The notes under the pieces: model-generated
Databases searched by the model: none
The model's input: only the letters and a program-made list of their open reading frames with translations
What the model was told of the DNA's origin: nothing
Program-made: the position numbers and the translations under genes
DNA from: Bacteroidia bacterium
GTDB taxonomy: Bacteria > Bacteroidota > Bacteroidia > J057
DNA length: 64,000 nt
Assembly: GCA_033391075.1 (NCBI GenBank)
Contig: JAWPMV010000001.1
Coordinates: forward strand, 1,674,001-1,738,000
Direction of reading: 5' to 3'
Part shown: piece by piece, positions 44,071 through 58,064 of the stretch
Numbering within the stretch: the stretch's first letter is position 1
How the letters are laid out: each line of letters starts with the position of its first letter

Positions 44071-46236
44071 CTAAGACAGTTTCATGGGTAAATCAGTCAG
44101 CCGCTTTCCTGTGATCCTTTTCACTGCATTGGCAATGGCGGCTGCAATGGGGCCGAGTGGAGGTTCACCGACCGGTAGAGGCACATCTGCACCCTGGATC
44201 AAGTGAACATCAATCTCTTTAGGCGCATTACGCATGAGGGCCATATCATAGGGGCCATAAATGGTCGGGAAGAGTTTTCCGTCCTTCAATCCCATTTTTT
44301 CATGCATAGAGGCACTCATACCCATGATAATGGAACCTTCACACTGAGCCCTTACCTGATCGGGATTTACAGCAATTCCACAATCAAAGGCACAGACAAC
44401 TTTGTGAACCTTGATTTGATTGTTTTCTACGGAAACCTCTACAACCTGAGCGCAGGGAGCATTCGCATCTATAGAGGCCGCAATGCCCATCGCACGATTC
44501 CCATTCGCAGTATCCTGGTAATTTCCTTTCTCAGCAGCCAGTTCGATTACCTTCTTGATCCGAAGAGCATTCCCATCATTTCCTAACATAGCCAGACGAA
44601 AATCAACCGGACTTTTACCTGCTTTTATCGCCATCTCGTCAATGAAACTTTCGATGGCAAAGGTATTGGCTAATAAGCCCAAACTTCTCCACCAACTCGT
44701 AGCAAAAGGGAGATCGCTATGCCATTGTACAGCTCTTCTGCTATCCAGATTGTCGTACATGATATTTCCTCCTCTCAGAGCACCTGCGTCTGCTCCCAAA
44801 ACGGTGTGAAGGGCTGCTGGCATGATCACTGAATTGTAGGCCACGTCCCCACTTGCATAATGGTGTTCAAGGGACTTCATATTGCCATTCTCTGTCAGAG
44901 ATCCACGCATGATATGATTCGTCGGGGGTCTGAATGTATCATGTTGAAATTCTTCTTTTCGGGTAAAGAAATATTTAACCGGCTTGCCAACTTCTTTGGA
45001 CATGAGTGCAGCACGTACTGCATGTATGGTATTCAACCTTCGCCCAAATCCTCCTCCCAGATAAGTTCCAATTACATTCACATTTTCAAGCTCTAGCCCT
45101 AATGCCTCTGCGACTTGTTGTTGGGTAATACCAATGACCTGAGTGGATAGAATAACGCTAGCCTTTCCATCTGCTACAGAAGCTACGGCTCCATTGGGTT
45201 CTATTTGGGCATGGGCACCTATAGGACTATTAAATTCCATGGATAATGTGTTCTCGTCTTCAACATCGAGAGCTCCTCCATGTTTTTGGGTGATCATTTT
45301 ATCTCCATTCCCCACTTTGATAACTGCTCTGAGATCTTCTTCAGTCCATTTCTTAGGAATGTCCCATTCGACTTTTAGCTTTCTTTTGGCTGCCAATGCC
45401 TGAGGATAGGACTCTGCTATTACTCCTACCCAGTCATCCTTACGGATAACTTTCACCACTCCCGGCATTTTTTCTGCCGCACTTGTGTCCACACTTTTCA
45501 TGCTGGCCCCTACATGCTCAGGTCTGACCACAGCTGCATGAAGCATGTTTTCCATTTGGGCATCCATTCCGAAAATGGGTTCGCCCATGATTTTGGCTTT
45601 TAGGTCAATACGAGCTACAGGTTTTCCCACATATTTATAATCCTTCAAAGGTCTTAGTTCCGGTGTGTCTGGCAAGCTCCAATCGCTAACATCCGCTACT
45701 GCCTCTGCATAGGTCATGGTTTTTCCACCGCCTGAGACGATCCCTTCAGCTGTACTTAAAGCAGAGACTGATGTCCCCAGTTTAGCTGCCGCTTCCAGTT
45801 TGATTTTTTCCCTCATAGTTGCAGCCATTTCACGCAGGGGTTGGAAGAGTTGAGCAACAGATAAACTTCCTCCCGTACTCAGGCCATCTATGATCCCGGA
45901 AGCTGTTTCTGCAGCTTTTACAGTGATCTGGCTAATATTTACATCCAATTCATCCGCAAGTATCTGGGCGAAACTGGTGAAAGAGCCCTGGCCCATTTCT
46001 ACTTTTGGAGAACGGAGAGTAATACTATTATCGCTTCCCACTTCAATCCAGAGATTCGCTTCTGTTCCGCTTCCTGTATAAGGAGCTACCAGGGTTTCTG
46101 ATAATTCAATGATGCTTCTTCTTAGGGAATTTCTGAAAACATAGGTTCCCAGGGCAAGAACTCCCAGGGTTCCTAATCCTCCCCTAACGAGAAACTTCCT
46201 GCGTGAAGTCTTTTTTGATTTCTTTGTTTCTGACAT
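44071..46236 (-). CDS. iorB: Molybdenum hydroxylase large subunit (isoquinoline 1-oxidoreductase beta-like)
   Basis: This protein of 721 residues binds molybdopterin. The N-terminus has a Tat-type signal (SRRKFLVRGGLGTLGVLALG), so it is likely exported folded. Family motifs are 'IEVGSDNSITLRSPKVEMGQG', 'GTYLGGGFGRRLN', 'ALHTVLGADAGALRGGN' and the C-terminal 'VGEPPLGPIAAAIANAVKRITGKR', whose Glu is the catalytic base in this enzyme family. The group includes IorB and related aldehyde or N-heterocycle oxidases; the true substrate is unknown. With the 2Fe-2S subunit and the cytochrome c encoded upstream it forms a complete electron path from substrate to the respiratory chain. It is not a xanthine dehydrogenase, which has a FAD domain. 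Confidence 0.88.
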   Translation of the reverse strand: MSETKKSKKTSRRKFLVRGGLGTLGVLALGTYVFRNSLRRSIIELSETLVAPYTGSGTEANLWIEVGSDNSITLRSPKVEMGQGSFTSFAQILADELDVNISQITVKAAETASGIIDGLSTGGSLSVAQLFQPLREMAATMREKIKLEAAAKLGTSVSALSTAEGIVSGGGKTMTYAEAVADVSDWSLPDTPELRPLKDYKYVGKPVARIDLKAKIMGEPIFGMDAQMENMLHAAVVRPEHVGASMKSVDTSAAEKMPGVVKVIRKDDWVGVIAESYPQALAAKRKLKVEWDIPKKWTEEDLRAVIKVGNGDKMITQKHGGALDVEDENTLSMEFNSPIGAHAQIEPNGAVASVADGKASVILSTQVIGITQQQVAEALGLELENVNVIGTYLGGGFGRRLNTIHAVRAALMSKEVGKPVKYFFTRKEEFQHDTFRPPTNHIMRGSLTENGNMKSLEHHYASGDVAYNSVIMPAALHTVLGADAGALRGGNIMYDNLDSRRAVQWHSDLPFATSWWRSLGLLANTFAIESFIDEMAIKAGKSPVDFRLAMLGNDGNALRIKKVIELAAEKGNYQDTANGNRAMGIAASIDANAPCAQVVEVSVENNQIKVHKVVCAFDCGIAVNPDQVRAQCEGSIIMGMSASMHEKMGLKDGKLFPTIYGPYDMALMRNAPKEIDVHLIQGADVPLPVGEPPLGPIAAAIANAVKRITGKRLTDLPMKLS

Positions 46237-46253
46237 GATTTAGGTATTTAGGA

Positions 46254-46721
46254 TTAGGAATTAGCATTTTTCAATTCAGCGGCTTTGTGAATAGCTTTAC
46301 GCATCCGGTAATAAGTCGCGCAACGGCAGACATTGACGATATTGGCATCTATGTCCTCATCTGTTGGATTTGGAATGCGTTCCAACATGGCAGCGGTAGC
46401 CATGATAAATCCTGGTTGACAATAGCCACATTGAGGAACTACTTCGTCTGCCCAGGCCTGCTGTGCAGGGTGTAAATTATCTCCATCACTTAGCCCCTCG
46501 ATCGTGGTAACTTCCTTGCCGGCCACAGCTTGAATGGGGTAGGAGCAAGAACGAATGGCCTCGCCATTTACGTGCAGGGTACAAGCCCCACAGGCGGCCT
46601 TTCCACAGCCAAATTTTGTCCCTTTCAAATCCAGGACATCCCGAACTACCCAGAGTAGGGGAGTATGCCCATCTACCTCGACGGTTTGCGGGCTTCCATT
46701 TATGGTGAATGAAATCTTCAT
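46254..46721 (-). CDS. iorA: Molybdenum hydroxylase 2Fe-2S subunit (isoquinoline 1-oxidoreductase alpha-like)
   Basis: This protein of 155 residues has two [2Fe-2S] clusters. The plant-ferredoxin-like motif is 'KFGCGKAACGACTLHVNGEAIRSC'-like (Cys-rich, about 38-60), and the helical one is 'PQCGYCQPGFIMA' with 'VNVCRCATYYRMRKAI'. The 18-bp spacing to iorB and 31-bp spacing to the cytochrome gene show one transcript. It passes electrons from the Mo site to the cytochrome c. No signal peptide is present, so it is probably carried out with the Tat-bearing partner. Confidence 0.92.
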   Translation of the reverse strand: MKISFTINGSPQTVEVDGHTPLLWVVRDVLDLKGTKFGCGKAACGACTLHVNGEAIRSCSYPIQAVAGKEVTTIEGLSDGDNLHPAQQAWADEVVPQCGYCQPGFIMATAAMLERIPNPTDEDIDANIVNVCRCATYYRMRKAIHKAAELKNANS

Positions 46722-46752
46722 TGTATTCGAATTTATTAGATAGTGCGTTTGA

Positions 46753-47370
46753 TTATTCTTCAGGAATGATGGCTCCTTGTGCAGCCCAATCTTTTACCGC
46801 TTTGATATAATCTTCTTTTGAAACTGGCGGCAATTCTCTGGGATTTCCTTCCGCATCCACGCCTGGTTCCCAGGCCCAAAGGACCAGTTCATGTTCGGTA
46901 AGGTGCTTTACGATTTCAGCCAGACTTCTATTCCCATTATTTGCACGGTCCATCATAGATTGGGCGATTTCTACCCGGCTTAATCCTTCCCACTGCATAG
47001 CCAAAGGAGCGAGGCTCCACTCAGGTGCTCCGGGTACGCCTGAAAAATCATTGTTTTCATGTTGGTGGCAACCTTCACAACGTAAGGCTGCTACTCCATG
47101 ATTATCCGGACCCCTTTGCACGCCAAAGTTATGGGGGTGGCTATCCTCTCCCTGTCGGGGACGATCTCCAGAAGGGTGACAATTGACACAGCGTTTGTGA
47201 GTGAGGACTTTCATCATCAGGTCAAAAGGAGTGTCATCAGCCGCTTCTAGTATAGTAGTGCTAAGTGGATGGTTATCAGGTGTCTTTTCCTCGCTCAGGC
47301 TCGTAAAGCCTACGGTAGCCACTGCTATTAGGAAAAATAATAGAAAATAAAGATGAGTTTTTGTGGGCAT
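46753..47370 (-). CDS. Diheme cytochrome c, electron acceptor of the iorAB enzyme
   Basis: This exported protein of 205 residues has an N-terminal signal/anchor (about 7-22) and two CxxCH heme sites: Cys61-Val-Asn-Cys64-His65 and Cys98-Glu-Gly-Cys101-His102. The segment between is rich in His/Pro/Gly ('DSHPHNFGVQRGPDNHG'), which may give the distal ligands. It is the first gene of the cytochrome-iorA-iorB unit and likely takes electrons from the Mo enzyme. A TetR regulator gene precedes it, and the palindrome 47398-47413 lies between them, only 28 bp upstream of this start. Confidence 0.85.
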   Translation of the reverse strand: MPTKTHLYFLLFFLIAVATVGFTSLSEEKTPDNHPLSTTILEAADDTPFDLMMKVLTHKRCVNCHPSGDRPRQGEDSHPHNFGVQRGPDNHGVAALRCEGCHQHENNDFSGVPGAPEWSLAPLAMQWEGLSRVEIAQSMMDRANNGNRSLAEIVKHLTEHELVLWAWEPGVDAEGNPRELPPVSKEDYIKAVKDWAAQGAIIPEE

Positions 47371-49117: not shown

Positions 49118-50455
49118 ATGACTGCTACAACTACTCAAGAGAAAGAAACTGATTACCTCATTATCGGAGCTGGGGCTATGGGAATTGCTTTTGCCGACGA
49201 AATATTTAGTAGAAAGCCTCAGCTGAAAATCACCATCATTGACCGTAGGGAGAAGGCAGGTGGGCATTGGAATGATGCCTATCCCTTTGTTCGTTTACAT
49301 CAACCCGCTGCCTTTTATGGGGTTAATTCTCTTGTCCTGGGAAATGGGAGTAATGATCTTTCCTCCAAAACAGAATTGCTTGCCTATTATGATAAGATAA
49401 TGGAGAAGTTTTTGGCTAGTGGAAGGGTAGAATTTTTAGCGGAACATGATTACCTGGGAGATGGGAAGGTAGTGAGTCTCAAAAATCCAGCACAACGGTA
49501 TACCTATAAGATCAACAAAAGCCTGGTGGATGGGACTTATATGAAAGTAGAAGTTCCTTCAACCCATGCTCCTAAATATAAGGTAGGTGCAGGGGTGCAT
49601 TTGCTGCCGGTAAATGAACTGCTACATAGCCATGACAAATGGGAGAAATTTTATGTTGTGGGTAGTGGGAAAACCGGAATGGATGCTATTCTTTTTCTTC
49701 TTGATAAGGAGGTTCCTGTTGAAAATATTTTTTGGATCAGTCCTAATGATTCCTGGCTTTTCAATCGGGCGTTTATCCAAGAGGGTTCAGTCGCGGAAGA
49801 AGTGCTAAAACATGGGGATTGCATGAAAGTAGCTCAGAAGTCAGAGGAGATCTTTTTAGAAATGGAAAAGAAAGGAGGAATCCTGCGTTTGGATAAAAAA
49901 ATATCTCCTGGCAAATGGCGCTGTGCTACCGTGAGCCCAGAGGAATTGGAAAAATTGCAGACAATCAGGCAGGTAATCCGTTTAGGTCGGGTAAAAAGTA
50001 TAAGCCCTACAGATATTGAATTTGAAGAAGGAAAGTTGGCTTATTCGGGCAAAGCGCTTTTTGTACATTGCTCAGCCAATGGGTTAGCCAAACGGAAAAA
50101 GGTCCCGATTTTTTCTGACGGGAAAATCACTTTACAATCTATTCTATTTTGTCAGCAGGTGTTTAGCGCGGCCACTATTGCTCGCTTATCTTTGGCAAAC
50201 ATAAGTGAAAAGCGAAAAAATCAATTGACTCCGGTTCCACATCCGGAGTATAAAGAGGATTGGCCAAAGGCTTATTCTACCAGCATAAATAATTTACTAT
50301 TGGTTCATAAGGTATTCCCGTTATGGATGTTTAGGTCCCGCCTGAATTTTATGAGCCATGAACCCATGCTTACCTATTTTGCTTATGCAGCTAAAGCCAT
50401 GTTAATGGCTCCAGCATTAGAAAAAGCTGCCAAAAGAATGCCCGCCCTTCATTGA
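49118..50455 (+). CDS. FAD/NAD(P)-binding flavoprotein, monooxygenase-like
   Basis: This protein of 445 residues has an N-terminal Rossmann motif 'YLIIGAGAMGIAFADEI' with 'ITIIDRREKAGGHWNDAYPF', the pattern of class B flavin monooxygenases (the 'GGHW' after the acidic residue). A second Rossmann segment is 'FYVVGSGKTGMDAILFLL'. A central 'LHQPAAFYGVNS' follows the first motif. The typical FxGxxxHxxxW fingerprint of BVMOs is not visible, so the reaction is open: oxygenation or a simple oxidase. The gene is followed 81 bp later by a styrene-oxide-isomerase-like gene, so the pair may epoxidise an alkene and isomerise the epoxide (inference). Confidence 0.75.
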   Translation: MTATTTQEKETDYLIIGAGAMGIAFADEIFSRKPQLKITIIDRREKAGGHWNDAYPFVRLHQPAAFYGVNSLVLGNGSNDLSSKTELLAYYDKIMEKFLASGRVEFLAEHDYLGDGKVVSLKNPAQRYTYKINKSLVDGTYMKVEVPSTHAPKYKVGAGVHLLPVNELLHSHDKWEKFYVVGSGKTGMDAILFLLDKEVPVENIFWISPNDSWLFNRAFIQEGSVAEEVLKHGDCMKVAQKSEEIFLEMEKKGGILRLDKKISPGKWRCATVSPEELEKLQTIRQVIRLGRVKSISPTDIEFEEGKLAYSGKALFVHCSANGLAKRKKVPIFSDGKITLQSILFCQQVFSAATIARLSLANISEKRKNQLTPVPHPEYKEDWPKAYSTSINNLLLVHKVFPLWMFRSRLNFMSHEPMLTYFAYAAKAMLMAPALEKAAKRMPALH

Positions 50456-50536
50456 TTGTTGATGTATTGCAATCAAGCGGATTTTCGGAACTCTTTTTCC
50501 TGGATTTACAAAAAACCTATTAAAACAGATACTACT

Positions 50537-51019
50537 ATGACTATTACTACTGATCAAAGACGGATGGTCCAGAACGGTCTGGGCGTAATCCTGCTCGGTC
50601 TTATTGGAGGATTCTTCCTGGGCTGGAATGTAATCGGATTCATTTCTTTTCCTCCGCTACCGATTTCAATAGATTATCAGGTTCCGGGAACTACGGCTGC
50701 CTGGCGAGCTGTTCATACTGGAAATATTATGAATGGGATTATGGCTTTGGTCTTTGCCCTGGCTTTTAATTGGTGTGATTTGAGTAAAAAATTGTCCAAA
50801 AGAATTTCCTGGGCAGTGGTGGTGATTATCTGGGGAAATGCCATTTTTTACGTAGCTGCAGCTTTTGCCCCCAATCATGGTTTGTCATTCGGAGATAATG
50901 CCGCTGGAGCAGGAAATCTGGCCGGTATTATTGCTTATGTGCCTGCAATTGTTGCCGCCTATGCTTTGATTGTTGTGGTGATTATTTTGTTGAGAAATGT
51001 GAAAACGGCTACGGAATAA
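50537..51019 (+). CDS. Styrene-oxide isomerase-like four-TM protein
   Basis: This integral membrane protein of 160 residues has four TM helices. Started at the ATG 50537, it has His60 in 'WRAVHTGNIMNG', Asn66, Asn101 and Tyr105 ('WGNAIFYV'). From memory these correspond to His58 (heme ligand), Asn64, Asn99 and Tyr103 of styrene oxide isomerase (StyC), at a constant offset of two, and the surrounding 'VPGTTAAW' and 'APNHGLSFGDN' also resemble StyC. SOI rearranges aryl epoxides to aldehydes using a heme b. An upstream ATG at 50456 gives 27 further residues that look like random coding. It lies between the flavoprotein and a porin gene, suggesting a degradation or detoxification unit. Confidence 0.75.
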   Translation: MTITTDQRRMVQNGLGVILLGLIGGFFLGWNVIGFISFPPLPISIDYQVPGTTAAWRAVHTGNIMNGIMALVFALAFNWCDLSKKLSKRISWAVVVIIWGNAIFYVAAAFAPNHGLSFGDNAAGAGNLAGIIAYVPAIVAAYALIVVVIILLRNVKTATE

Positions 51020-51108
51020 AAGATTTATGATTGCCTCAGCATGCTACATTTTTACTAAGTTGCCTGAGTTGGGAAAGAGGGAGTATTGATTACTGATTGC
51101 TGCTACTC

Positions 51109-52500
51109 ATGAATTCTATTTACGCGACCTGTATTTTTCTTCTCCTCTTTAGCTTCAGGGCTTTTGCTCAACCTGGACCTTTTAAGATTTACAGGTGTTT
51201 CGATGATTTCTCTTATTTGTTGGGGAATGATACGCTGGAGAAAAAATACTATGAGCATTTGAAATACATGCCTCTTAGCAAAGACAAGCAGGCATCGATC
51301 TCTATCGGAGGGGAGCTAAGAGAGCAATATCAATTATTCAGAAATATCAATTTTGGGGATTTGCGGCCCGGGGTGGAAGAGGATAAAAACGGACATCTTT
51401 GGCATCGGTTTATGTTACATGCGGATGTACGTTTGGGAGAGCAATGGCGGCTTTTTACCCAGATCAATTCTACTTTCGCTTTCAATAAACCCGATCTTAC
51501 TCCTCAAATTGATGAAGATCCCCTGGCCTTGCATCAGGCATTCATTCAGTGGAGGCCCAAAGGAACATCTGGCTTTTTTGCTCAACTCGGCAGGCAGGAA
51601 ATTAGTTTTGCTTCCCCCTATATTGTTGCTGTTCGTGAGGTGCCTAACAATAGACTAAACTTTGATGCGATCATGTTGGGCCTGGAAAAAAAATCCTATA
51701 AGCTCTACTCTTTTTTGGCAACTCCCATTATTTCTCAGAATGGAGTGTTGGACAATAGCCGCATTCCGGAATATATCTGGTCTCTTTATGGGGTTTTTCC
51801 TTTAGGGAAAAGAACGCTGGACGCTTATTATGTGGGATTCTATTCAGAGAATAATGCTTATAATTTTCAGAGGGGCATAGAGAATCGCCAAACCCTTGGC
51901 ATGCGAATGTATCAAAGAGCGAGAGAAGGCCTTGTTTATGATATGCTGGCTATGTATCAGTTTGGGAATTTTAATAGTGCTTCTATTTCTGCCTACTATT
52001 TGTCGGCGGATGCGGCTTTCCGAATTCCCCTGAAGGGCCATAGTTTTATACCCGGCTTTAGTCTCAAATATATAAGCGGAGATAAGTCTCCTACGGACAA
52101 TGTCCTGAATACCTACAATATGTTGTTTTCGAAACCTTCTTTCGGTCTATCTATTCCGATAGGAGCCACGAATCTGGTCGATCTTGGCCCTTCTTTCGAA
52201 TACAATCCTCCCGCTAATTTTCGGATCATCATGAGTAGCCATTTTATGTGGCGGCAAAATGAGAATGATGGTATTTATACCCCCGGTCGAGTTCAAACCC
52301 GCCCAAATGTAGCCCAGCTTTTTCAGTCAGATCAGAAGGATATTGGGCAAAAACTGAGTATGGAGCTTTGGTATCTGCCAGATTATACCTGGAATTTGTA
52401 CTTCGAGCTTACTCATATATTGCCTGGAATGTTTGTGAAAGAAACAGGTCAGGGCCAGGCTATCTCCTATTTTTCCGGTAAATTCACCTTTAAGTTTTGA
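51109..52500 (+). CDS. Alginate-export-type outer-membrane porin
   Basis: This protein of 463 residues has a signal peptide (MNSIYATCIFLLLFSFRAFAQ), with the ATG at 51109 preferred over the TTG 12 bp upstream. The rest is a large beta-barrel of the Alg_exp family: 'ISIGGELREQYQLFRNINFG', 'WHRFMLHADVRLGEQWRLF', 'LHQAFIQWRPKGTSGFFAQLGRQEI' and a C-terminal 'LYFELTHILPGMFVKETG' strand set ending in Phe. Such porins let hydrophobic or anionic compounds cross the outer membrane. It follows the SOI-like gene by 89 bp in the same direction and may serve the same substrate. Ends before a terminator at 52651. Confidence 0.83.
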   Translation: MNSIYATCIFLLLFSFRAFAQPGPFKIYRCFDDFSYLLGNDTLEKKYYEHLKYMPLSKDKQASISIGGELREQYQLFRNINFGDLRPGVEEDKNGHLWHRFMLHADVRLGEQWRLFTQINSTFAFNKPDLTPQIDEDPLALHQAFIQWRPKGTSGFFAQLGRQEISFASPYIVAVREVPNNRLNFDAIMLGLEKKSYKLYSFLATPIISQNGVLDNSRIPEYIWSLYGVFPLGKRTLDAYYVGFYSENNAYNFQRGIENRQTLGMRMYQRAREGLVYDMLAMYQFGNFNSASISAYYLSADAAFRIPLKGHSFIPGFSLKYISGDKSPTDNVLNTYNMLFSKPSFGLSIPIGATNLVDLGPSFEYNPPANFRIIMSSHFMWRQNENDGIYTPGRVQTRPNVAQLFQSDQKDIGQKLSMELWYLPDYTWNLYFELTHILPGMFVKETGQGQAISYFSGKFTFKF

Positions 52501-55745: not shown

Positions 55746-56906
55746 TCAGTATCCACAAATCCCCAGTATTTTTTGAAGTACTTTTTCTGCATGAAAATAT
55801 TCAAAGGCTATTTCTTTGGCTGCCATTGCATGAATATGGGGATCTTTTTTTAGCATATTGAATGCATCCGCAGCTTCTCGAACGTCATTTACAGCCAATA
55901 AACCTTTACCGATAGGTAAATGGGATGAAAATCCTGTATCCTGGTGAATCACGGGCTTACCTGCCTGGAGGTAATAGGCCATTCGATCTCCTGTCCATGC
56001 ATCCCAAAGTTGGGAATGGATCTGCTTGGCCACAGAGAATTCCCCCGCTGAGTTGGCCAGGTAGTTGAGGTAGGAATTCACACTTCGAGATACGTGATTT
56101 GCATCACGGATTTCCCATCCCTGGTTTTTGAGTTTTTTGGAAGGAATATCTTTTCCTGAAACCGCCATTTCCAGTTTTGCGTCTGTCCGGGAAGGAAGGT
56201 CGATAAATTTATAAAATGCCTCTGCTTTTTGTCCATAAACCTGGCCTTCGTACTCAAGGACTTTATTCGCCCGCCAATTCATCACGGTTGTAAAAGCTGC
56301 ATCAGGATTTGAGTTAATCGGAATTCCTTCGAAAACACCCTGCAAAACTGGTGGAAAAAAGGGCTTCCAGTCGATGCCATCATCGGGGGCCAGGCTGGCA
56401 GCTGTACGAATATTCAGACCTGTGGTAATGTAGTGGTCAAATGATGGGATTTCCAAGGCCATTTCCCGCATTCTTTTGAAATTGATCTGAGACCATCCCG
56501 GTTCCCCATCTACGTAAATGCGCTTGCTGGGAAGCTGAGATTCTTCCTCCCATTCTCTCCATTCCAATTCAAAAAAAATATCAGCACTTTTAAACACGGA
56601 TTCAATTTCAGCTTTGCTATGCCCATGATAATTTCCATGTACATCTACAAAACACCAGTTGTCTGAATTGATGCCGTACTTTTGAAAAAGCTCTTTTAAA
56701 ACTTTAATCCCATAGCCTGGATCATTGGTCCAGCTGTCTTTTTCGAGGTCATGGCAACCGTATTCCCAATTCAGTTTTTCAACATAAAACACCTCATGAC
56801 CCAGGCGTACCAGTCCCGCCAGAAAACTTAAGAAATATAGGCTCATCCCCCCCATAGGATAGCGGACCATTCTTCCATTCAGAATTATGCGTAATTTATT
56901 TTTCAT
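55746..56906 (-). CDS. GT-B glycosyltransferase paralogue A
   Basis: This is one of four related proteins in the window (here 386 residues). The N-terminal domain has 'RYPMGGMSLYFLSFLAGLVRLGHEVFYVEK' in part, and then 'YGCHDLEKDSW'. The C-terminal domain has 'AGEFSVAKQIHSQLWDAWTGDR', 'AYYLQAGKPVIHQDTGFS', 'LPIGKGLLAVNDVREA' and 'EYFHAEKVLQKIL', the nucleotide-sugar half of CgeB-like GT-B enzymes. It should transfer a sugar to a cell-surface glycan from the cytoplasm. It is the last gene of the operon. The pairwise similarity to 56916-58064 is strong along the whole length. Confidence 0.8.
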   Translation of the reverse strand: MKNKLRIILNGRMVRYPMGGMSLYFLSFLAGLVRLGHEVFYVEKLNWEYGCHDLEKDSWTNDPGYGIKVLKELFQKYGINSDNWCFVDVHGNYHGHSKAEIESVFKSADIFFELEWREWEEESQLPSKRIYVDGEPGWSQINFKRMREMALEIPSFDHYITTGLNIRTAASLAPDDGIDWKPFFPPVLQGVFEGIPINSNPDAAFTTVMNWRANKVLEYEGQVYGQKAEAFYKFIDLPSRTDAKLEMAVSGKDIPSKKLKNQGWEIRDANHVSRSVNSYLNYLANSAGEFSVAKQIHSQLWDAWTGDRMAYYLQAGKPVIHQDTGFSSHLPIGKGLLAVNDVREAADAFNMLKKDPHIHAMAAKEIAFEYFHAEKVLQKILGICGY

Positions 56907-56915
56907 AGGATGTAC

Positions 56916-58064
56916 TTAGAATCCGTAATTGGAGAGCAGTTTTTTCATAAGCTTTTTTGCATCAAAATATTCGTGAGCTATTTCTTTGGCTGCTTTGGAA
57001 TGATGACGATAATCCTTTCTGAGCCTGCTAATGGCATCTGCCGCTTCTTCAGCTGTCTTTACTGCCATCAGCCCCAATCCAGTAGGAAGATGGGCAGAAA
57101 ACCCCGTATCCTGCTGTACGACGGGTTTTCCTAGCTGAAGGTAATAGGCCATTCTATCTCCTGTCCACCCTGTCCACAATTGGGAGTGGAATTGCTTGGC
57201 CACGGTAAACTCACCGAAGGAAGCTGCTATATACCGGAGGTAGGAATCAATGCTGGTAGCGATATCGTCTGCATTTCTGACCTGCCATTTATGAGATAAT
57301 AATCTCTCTCTCGGTACATTTTTCCCTGAAACGGCTACTTCCATATTCGCCTCTGTCAATTCAGGTAATCGAATAAAGGTTTCAAATGCTTCTCCTTTTT
57401 GTCCATAGGTGATGCCTTTATGGTTGAGAATTTTGTTTGATCTCCAGTTCATAATGGTGGTAAAAGGAGCATTTTTCGTTGTATTCACCTCTATGTCATC
57501 GAAGACATCTAATAAGACAGGAGGCATGATGATGTCCCACTTGATACCGATATCCGGACTTTTGGTAGTTCGAAATCCGATATTTTGCCCCACGGTTACG
57601 TAATGATCAAAATGAGGAATGGTCATTTGGGCATCCCGCATTTTTTCCAGTTTGATTTGGAACCATCCCGGTTCACCATCAATAAATATTCTTTTAGGGA
57701 CCATTTGGGATTCTTCTTCCCATTCGCCCCATTCCATTTCAATAAAAAGGTCTGCTGTTTTAAAAATCTCTTCAATAACAGTTTTATCAAGGCCCCAATA
57801 TTGTCCCGCAACATCAACAAAGCACCATTTATCGGCCATTCCATATTCAGTAAGGACTTGCTGTATTATCCCTAAGCCATACGTAGGATCATCGCTCATA
57901 GAACGCTTGGCGACATCATAGCATCCGTATTCGTAATCGCATTTTTCTACAAAATAGACTTCATGTCCCAGGCTCATTAAGCCTTTTAGCCAGCTTAAAT
58001 GCCATAAGGTCATCCCTCCAAGCGGATATTTAACGATCGTACCATTTACAATTATTCTAGCCAT
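56916..58064 (-). CDS. GT-B glycosyltransferase paralogue B
   Basis: This protein of 382 residues is the closest partner of the gene at 55746: both have 'DGEPGW', 'WEEESQ', 'FTTIMNWRSN' or 'FTTVMNWRAN', and 'WTGDRMAYYLQ-GKPV' in the same positions. The N-terminal motif is 'VKYPLGGMTLWHLSWLKGL'. The pair probably arose by tandem duplication. Acceptors are probably different sugars of the same polymer. It lies 9 bp before paralogue A and 3 bp after the deacetylase-like gene. Confidence 0.8.
   Translation of the reverse strand: MARIIVNGTIVKYPLGGMTLWHLSWLKGLMSLGHEVYFVEKCDYEYGCYDVAKRSMSDDPTYGLGIIQQVLTEYGMADKWCFVDVAGQYWGLDKTVIEEIFKTADLFIEMEWGEWEEESQMVPKRIFIDGEPGWFQIKLEKMRDAQMTIPHFDHYVTVGQNIGFRTTKSPDIGIKWDIIMPPVLLDVFDDIEVNTTKNAPFTTIMNWRSNKILNHKGITYGQKGEAFETFIRLPELTEANMEVAVSGKNVPRERLLSHKWQVRNADDIATSIDSYLRYIAASFGEFTVAKQFHSQLWTGWTGDRMAYYLQLGKPVVQQDTGFSAHLPTGLGLMAVKTAEEAADAISRLRKDYRHHSKAAKEIAHEYFDAKKLMKKLLSNYGF

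Follow-up and report, generated by a model that had tools for sequence, protein, structure and literature searches.

What does a protein resembling styrene oxide isomerase (SOI, StyC) do in a genome in which the styrene monooxygenase component StyA is not detected? This question is raised by SOI2, a small gene in a window of 64,000 nucleotides (the whole stretch of DNA analysed) from a Bacteroidia bacterium (assembly GCA_033391075.1, contig JAWPMV010000001.1, positions 1,674,001 to 1,738,000 of the forward strand). In two earlier reports, the role described for SOI is a step of styrene degradation (PMC11374702, PMC12502698). In the window, SOI2 follows a flavoprotein gene, here called FLAVO, and the comparisons described below show that the two are a real, conserved two-gene variation on known chemistry. 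The two genes are:

FLAVO, 49118..50455, plus strand: single-chain flavoprotein of the type using flavin adenine dinucleotide (FAD) and NAD(P)H, class B monooxygenase-like, 445 amino acids (aa)
SOI2, 50537..51019, plus strand: SOI-like membrane protein of 160 aa with four helices, predicted to bind haem b

The wider open frame of SOI2 spans 50456-51019 and would encode 187 aa from a TTG codon, but we prefer the in-frame ATG at 50537, which gives 160 aa and agrees with the start of a 74%-identical relative. SOI2 matched the NCBIfam StyC model NF045734 with an E value of 1.6e-29 and 102.8 bits, which is below the cut-off of 150 bits, whereas a styrene-cluster control scored 250. We therefore place it in a divergent sister clade and do not call it StyC. 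In the PDB, SOI2 matched SOI by sequence (8pnu, E 1.2e-17; 30tw, E 7.9e-19), so that at the sequence level its homology to SOI is far above chance. The predicted SOI2 model (mean predicted local distance difference test score, pLDDT, 85.3) has four helices and aligned to 8pnu_A with template modelling (TM) scores of 0.79/0.81 and E 9.1e-9, the sole structure match at E <= 0.001 among 530 at E <= 10. SOI2 thus resembles the StyC/SOI of Pseudomonas sp. VLB120 (PDB 8pnu/8pnv) in length, helix number and fold and has the haem-ligand His, both catalytic Asn residues and the catalytic Tyr. It differs in its identity of 26-37%, its score below the family cut-off, the replacement of D95 and T20, the lack of adjoining styAB genes and a tree position outside the styrene-cluster clade. 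The first-pass annotation, made from the sequence alone, had called the small membrane protein SOI-like, and the StyC profile, the PDB matches and the fold bear this out.

The same annotation had regarded the neighbouring gene product as flavin monooxygenase-like, which is confirmed by its fold matches and by two intact dinucleotide-binding motifs. Three motifs are invariant in all 21 aligned members, GxGxxG (G17-G22), GGHW (48-51) and the second Rossmann motif GxGKT (182-186); in FLAVO itself the Rossmann motifs read GAGAMG and GSGKTG, both intact in one chain. The AlphaFold model (mean pLDDT 89.8) matched flavin-containing monooxygenases (FMO), Baeyer-Villiger monooxygenases (BVMO) and N-oxygenases in the PDB, with a best E of 7e-12 in Foldseek and Z values of 15-20 in VIA-align. 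Judged from this model, FLAVO has a class B fold: it shares the two dinucleotide-binding domains and the overall architecture of class B flavin monooxygenases (4a9w/4c5o, 4usq, 5mq6 and 8z12, DiatB), but is only about 10-15% identical to them and lacks the class fingerprint. Pfam did not assign FLAVO to an FMO-like family, and in NCBIfam it exceeded the cut-off of no equivalog. Its likeness to the StyA/StyB styrene monooxygenase lies in a supposed role upstream of an SOI, whereas homology to StyA is not detectable. The StyA query gave 0 matches at E <= 0.001 in the genome of the window (G000), and StyA was also not found in G416, a Saprospiraceae UBA7328 genome carrying a related locus (L015); the same query detected StyA in 3/3 styrene-cluster genomes. 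The flavoprotein is therefore left as the candidate oxygenase. An earlier statement that neither StyA nor StyB is present thus holds for StyA throughout the genome, while StyB was not searched genome-wide.

To what extent the two genes belong together was judged from their distribution in genome draws, all of which were samples. A sequence-pattern scan of genome contigs, which misses distant relatives, yielded 24 SOI loci, 20 of them with StyA nearby. In L015 the order SOI1-FLAVO-SOI2, with 37-base gaps, stands in place of StyA; the other loci without a StyA match (L026, L037, L038) are short or cut, and L037 contains a StyB relative. An SOI profile was then searched against 298 genomes of the family to which the L015 genome belongs, and FLAVO was searched in the same draw. 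SOI matches were found in nine genomes, eight strong and one weak; the weak one (L073 in G789) is mutase-like and was left out of the strong count. FLAVO matches occurred in 32 of the 298 genomes, members of the clade with 58-66% identity in only seven. This clade was present in 7/8 strong-SOI genomes versus 0/290 others (Fisher p 2e-13, uncorrected for kinship; G845 and G873 are related, as seen from common flanking genes).

The pair is adjacent in eight Bacteroidota loci (the window, L015 and L066-L071) in three arrangements: SOI followed by FLAVO in the same direction in L015, L066, L067, L070 and L071, divergent in L068 and L069, and FLAVO first in the window. When all open reading frames of the eight loci were compared, FLAVO and SOI were the only families present in 8/8, and every further shared family occurred in at most two. 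The neighbourhood comparison that the first-pass annotation had named as a check thus showed a conserved pair, and there is good support for a joint role of FLAVO and the SOI-like protein. The SOI-linked FLAVOs formed one clade in both trees calculated (support 100/100 with narrower and 100/99 with wider sampling); the wider tree used eight of the 22 Bacteroidota loci L084-L105 and the narrower one 21, with L098, which is cut, in neither. Both genes are rare: among 395 genomes sampled across the phylum, SOI was found in one, the window's own, and so was FLAVO, and SOI occurred in 1/22 genomes of the order. Viral contigs contained no close relatives of either gene. Seven plasmid records contained SOI relatives, and all four examined are sty clusters with annotated StyA. 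FLAVO relatives were present in nine plasmid records, with no detectable SOI within 5 kb in 6/6 examined; one of these plasmid loci, L040, matched in two pieces and was excluded from alignments and trees. In the one open-access library searched, we did not find SOI tied to Saprospiraceae or to a flavoprotein partner other than StyA.

Beyond these loci, FLAVO relatives were found in 16/178 Actinomycetes-side and 3/175 Gammaproteobacteria-side genomes. In many Bacteroidota members of the family, DUF2855 (PF11017) is fused or adjacent to FLAVO; this was the case at 17 of 27 non-SOI loci and at none of the seven SOI-linked loci compared. The window genome itself encodes a second FLAVO (G000:C1:4803474-4804727; L046:256-2763) fused to DUF2855, a family without known function. 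FLAVO is 38-41% identical to the FLAVO-DUF2855 proteins, including this paralogue, and belongs to the same family, but in the narrower tree the SOI-linked clade is separate from the clade with the DUF2855-linked members, and its partner is SOI instead of DUF2855. Outside the SOI-linked clade, its nearest relative (45%) is encoded in G916 (L129, contig C70, 3.5 kb); this contig ends inside FLAVO, and the downstream genes read from sequence as a PHA synthase and a hydrolase. In three gammaproteobacterial loci of one lineage (L018, L020, L022), a complete styABC cluster is followed, 1.3 kb after styC, by a FLAVO relative (38%). The grouping of this relative with the SOI-linked clade had support of 87/89 in the wider tree and 98/87 with fewer rows, so that from the sequences this tie is weak and at best suggestive. 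In L020, the open reading frame separating styC from the FLAVO relative reads as an AraC-type regulator.

Can the haem pocket of SOI2 be expected to function like that of SOI? The residues concerned are encoded as follows:

His60 codon, 50714..50716, plus strand: aligned with the haem ligand His58 of VLB120 SOI
Asn66 codon, 50732..50734, plus strand: aligned with Asn64 of VLB120 SOI
Ile97 codon, 50825..50827, plus strand: at the place of the catalytic-network residue Asp95; not conserved
Asn101 codon, 50837..50839, plus strand: aligned with Asn99 of VLB120 SOI
Tyr105 codon, 50849..50851, plus strand: aligned with Tyr103 of VLB120 SOI

With the start at ATG 50537, the four active-site residues are thus found at the constant offset of two that had been noticed before; T20 of VLB120 SOI corresponds to Gly21 in SOI2. 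According to the structural report, ferric haem b is held by H58 in VLB120 SOI, and the epoxide oxygen is positioned by Y103 and N64; the N99A and Y103A variants were inactive and the N64A and D95A variants impaired, and N64, D95 and Y103 share one hydrogen-bond network (PMC11374702). We compared 36 aligned SOI sequences, 26 from styrene-type clusters and ten from Bacteroidota. H58, N64, D95, N99 and Y103 were all present in 26/26 styrene-cluster proteins, and H58 and N99 were kept in 10/10 Bacteroidota homologues. N64 and Y103 were retained in seven of the ten, with I, V or M at position 95; in the SOIs of L066, L067 and L070, all three of these positions differ, 64, 95 and 103 being occupied by H, E and F, respectively. 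As these residues are linked through a single network in the VLB120 structure, the joint exchange N64H+D95E+Y103F would fit a working but re-tuned pocket, and on the aligned sequences its concerted nature suggests that the pocket residues are jointly constrained. These three proteins form one tree branch (support 96/89), so the H/E/F change may have arisen once. The SOI tree had three branches, one with SOI2 and one of the L015 copies (74% identity; support 99/98), one with the remaining eight proteins from Bacteroidota (94/90) and one with the SOIs of the styrene clusters (90/99); the program issued a warning of long branches meeting. By analogy with SOI, binding of haem b by SOI2 is likely.

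Taken as a whole, the pair can be read as an oxygenation-rearrangement module of two genes in which FLAVO acts first and the haem protein second, a reading that we put somewhat short of an even chance. FLAVO, its FAD reduced by NAD(P)H, would activate O2 and transfer one oxygen onto an unsaturated, probably hydrophobic substrate, and the product, most likely an epoxide, would be handed to the membrane protein. SOI2 would be a trimeric ferric haem b enzyme with the haem held by His60; Fe(III) would serve as the Lewis acid, Tyr105 and Asn66 would hold the oxygen, and the epoxide would be isomerised to a carbonyl compound in a Meinwald rearrangement, as in SOI. The retention of the haem ligand and of the catalytic residues makes epoxide chemistry plausible; the haem binding, the trimer, the order of steps, the epoxide and the substrate are parts of the model that we infer.

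Several observations speak against this sequence of reactions. Class B enzymes mostly perform Baeyer-Villiger reactions or N- and S-oxidations, and epoxidation is not usual for the class; none of the 21 FLAVO members in the alignment shows the class fingerprint FxGxxxHxxx(Y/W) ahead of its second Rossmann motif. None of the ten SOI homologues from Bacteroidota has D95, and three of them also differ at N64 and Y103, with the catalytic Tyr gone. One genome, G794 (L072), has an SOI homologue without a FLAVO of the 58-66% clade. The conserved unit includes no aldehyde dehydrogenase and does not point to a substrate. The phenylacetyl-CoA epoxidase gene paaA is present in G000 but in 0/7 other module genomes, so phenylacetate is not a shared end point, and a general role in converting styrene to phenylacetate is not supported.

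The two steps might also run in the reverse order, with SOI2 isomerising an epoxide made elsewhere and FLAVO, as a Baeyer-Villiger-type enzyme, oxidising the carbonyl product, an aldehyde or ketone, to an acid or an ester and so replacing an aldehyde dehydrogenase. Baeyer-Villiger enzymes are indeed among the best fold matches of FLAVO in the PDB, and a relative of StyD was found in none of the seven other module loci. Moreover, the complete styABC clusters of L018, L020 and L022 already contain an epoxidase, so the FLAVO relative there would act on something else. However, L018 and L020 also have a StyD relative, the gammaproteobacterial proteins are weakly tied to the SOI-linked clade on wider sampling, and the FMO/BVMO fingerprint is missing here as well. 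We consider the reverse order unlikely, though deserving of attention.

A second alternative is hydroxylamine chemistry: FLAVO would convert an amine into a hydroxylamine by N-hydroxylation, and the haem protein would then rearrange this product in the manner of hydroxylaminobenzene mutase. N-hydroxylases belong to the class B fold, and the mutase-like family of L073 matched the SOI profile in hhalign (probability 92%, E 6.8e-7, from a two-sequence profile), and the ligand His is aligned along with two Asn residues. SOI2 is, however, far closer to SOI (E 1e-17) and gave no meaningful pairwise BLASTP match to the mutase-like proteins, which occupy a separate long branch (support 100/100); we regard this chemistry as improbable for the pair but as a serious competitor nonetheless. 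Mutase-like membrane proteins are encoded at L073:6889-7323 (144 aa) and L076:4920-5372. A relative of the L073 protein adjoins a nitroreductase gene on the Comamonas CNB-1 plasmid pCNB, where it is recorded as hypothetical; we take it to be the hydroxylaminobenzene mutase of that pathway. If this identity is true, the SOI superfamily may include hydroxylaminobenzene mutase as a further haem protein, which we offer as a lead.

Could the haem protein be no isomerase at all but an electron-transfer or sensor partner of FLAVO that binds haem? The loss of D95 throughout the clade and of Tyr103 in 3/10 of its members would fit such a role. Against it stand the full H/N/N/Y set in 7/10, the retention of His58 and Asn99 in all ten, and the joint change of N64, D95 and Y103 in the other three, as in a working pocket, so that this role, too, appears rather improbable. 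Finally, a chance adjacency of two functionally separate genes, for which the 81-base gap between FLAVO and SOI2 in the window and the lack of conservation of the third neighbour, a porin gene, could be cited, is made very improbable by the exactly two families common to eight loci in three arrangements and by the co-occurrence of 7/8 versus 0/290.

This third neighbour is located directly downstream of SOI2:

PORIN, 51097..52500, plus strand: Alginate_exp (PF13372) outer-membrane beta-barrel, 467 aa from TTG; outside the conserved pair

Its score places it in this family (162.3 bits against a cut-off of 25.2, E 2e-47). As none of the other seven pair loci contains a relative, we rejected PORIN as a member of the module and regard it as a local neighbour only. 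The three-gene epoxide pathway proposed in the first-pass annotation is thus supported in part, for the pair, with epoxide chemistry as a plausible reading, but not for the porin. Upstream of the pair, at 44071-47370 on the minus strand, the window encodes a molybdopterin large subunit (MoCoBD, Ald_Xan_dh_C), a 2Fe-2S small subunit and a third protein in which CxxCH occurs twice; this set, of the aldehyde-oxidoreductase type, had no counterpart in the vicinity of the other pair loci. At 55746-58064, also on the minus strand, a tandem pair of genes encodes two proteins (386 and 382 aa) that resemble each other and have no Pfam match at 0.001.

In a broader sense, the oxygenation-rearrangement module may represent a StyAB-independent oxygenase-isomerase system in Bacteroidota, which we propose tentatively and consider possible rather than probable. 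In it, a class B-like oxygenase would have become dedicated to a haem b enzyme that acts as a Lewis acid, with at least two pocket sets (N/aliphatic/Y and H/E/F in place of N/D/Y) and a non-styrene substrate, and the haem fold would reach as far as hydroxylaminobenzene-mutase-like proteins. That a gene so rare in the phylum has kept an unrelated oxygenase as its partner suggests further natural substrates for the SOI family, be they epoxides or other compounds that rearrange. The pair also supplies natural haem-pocket variants of an industrially interesting biocatalyst, together with a two-gene cassette that can be tested.

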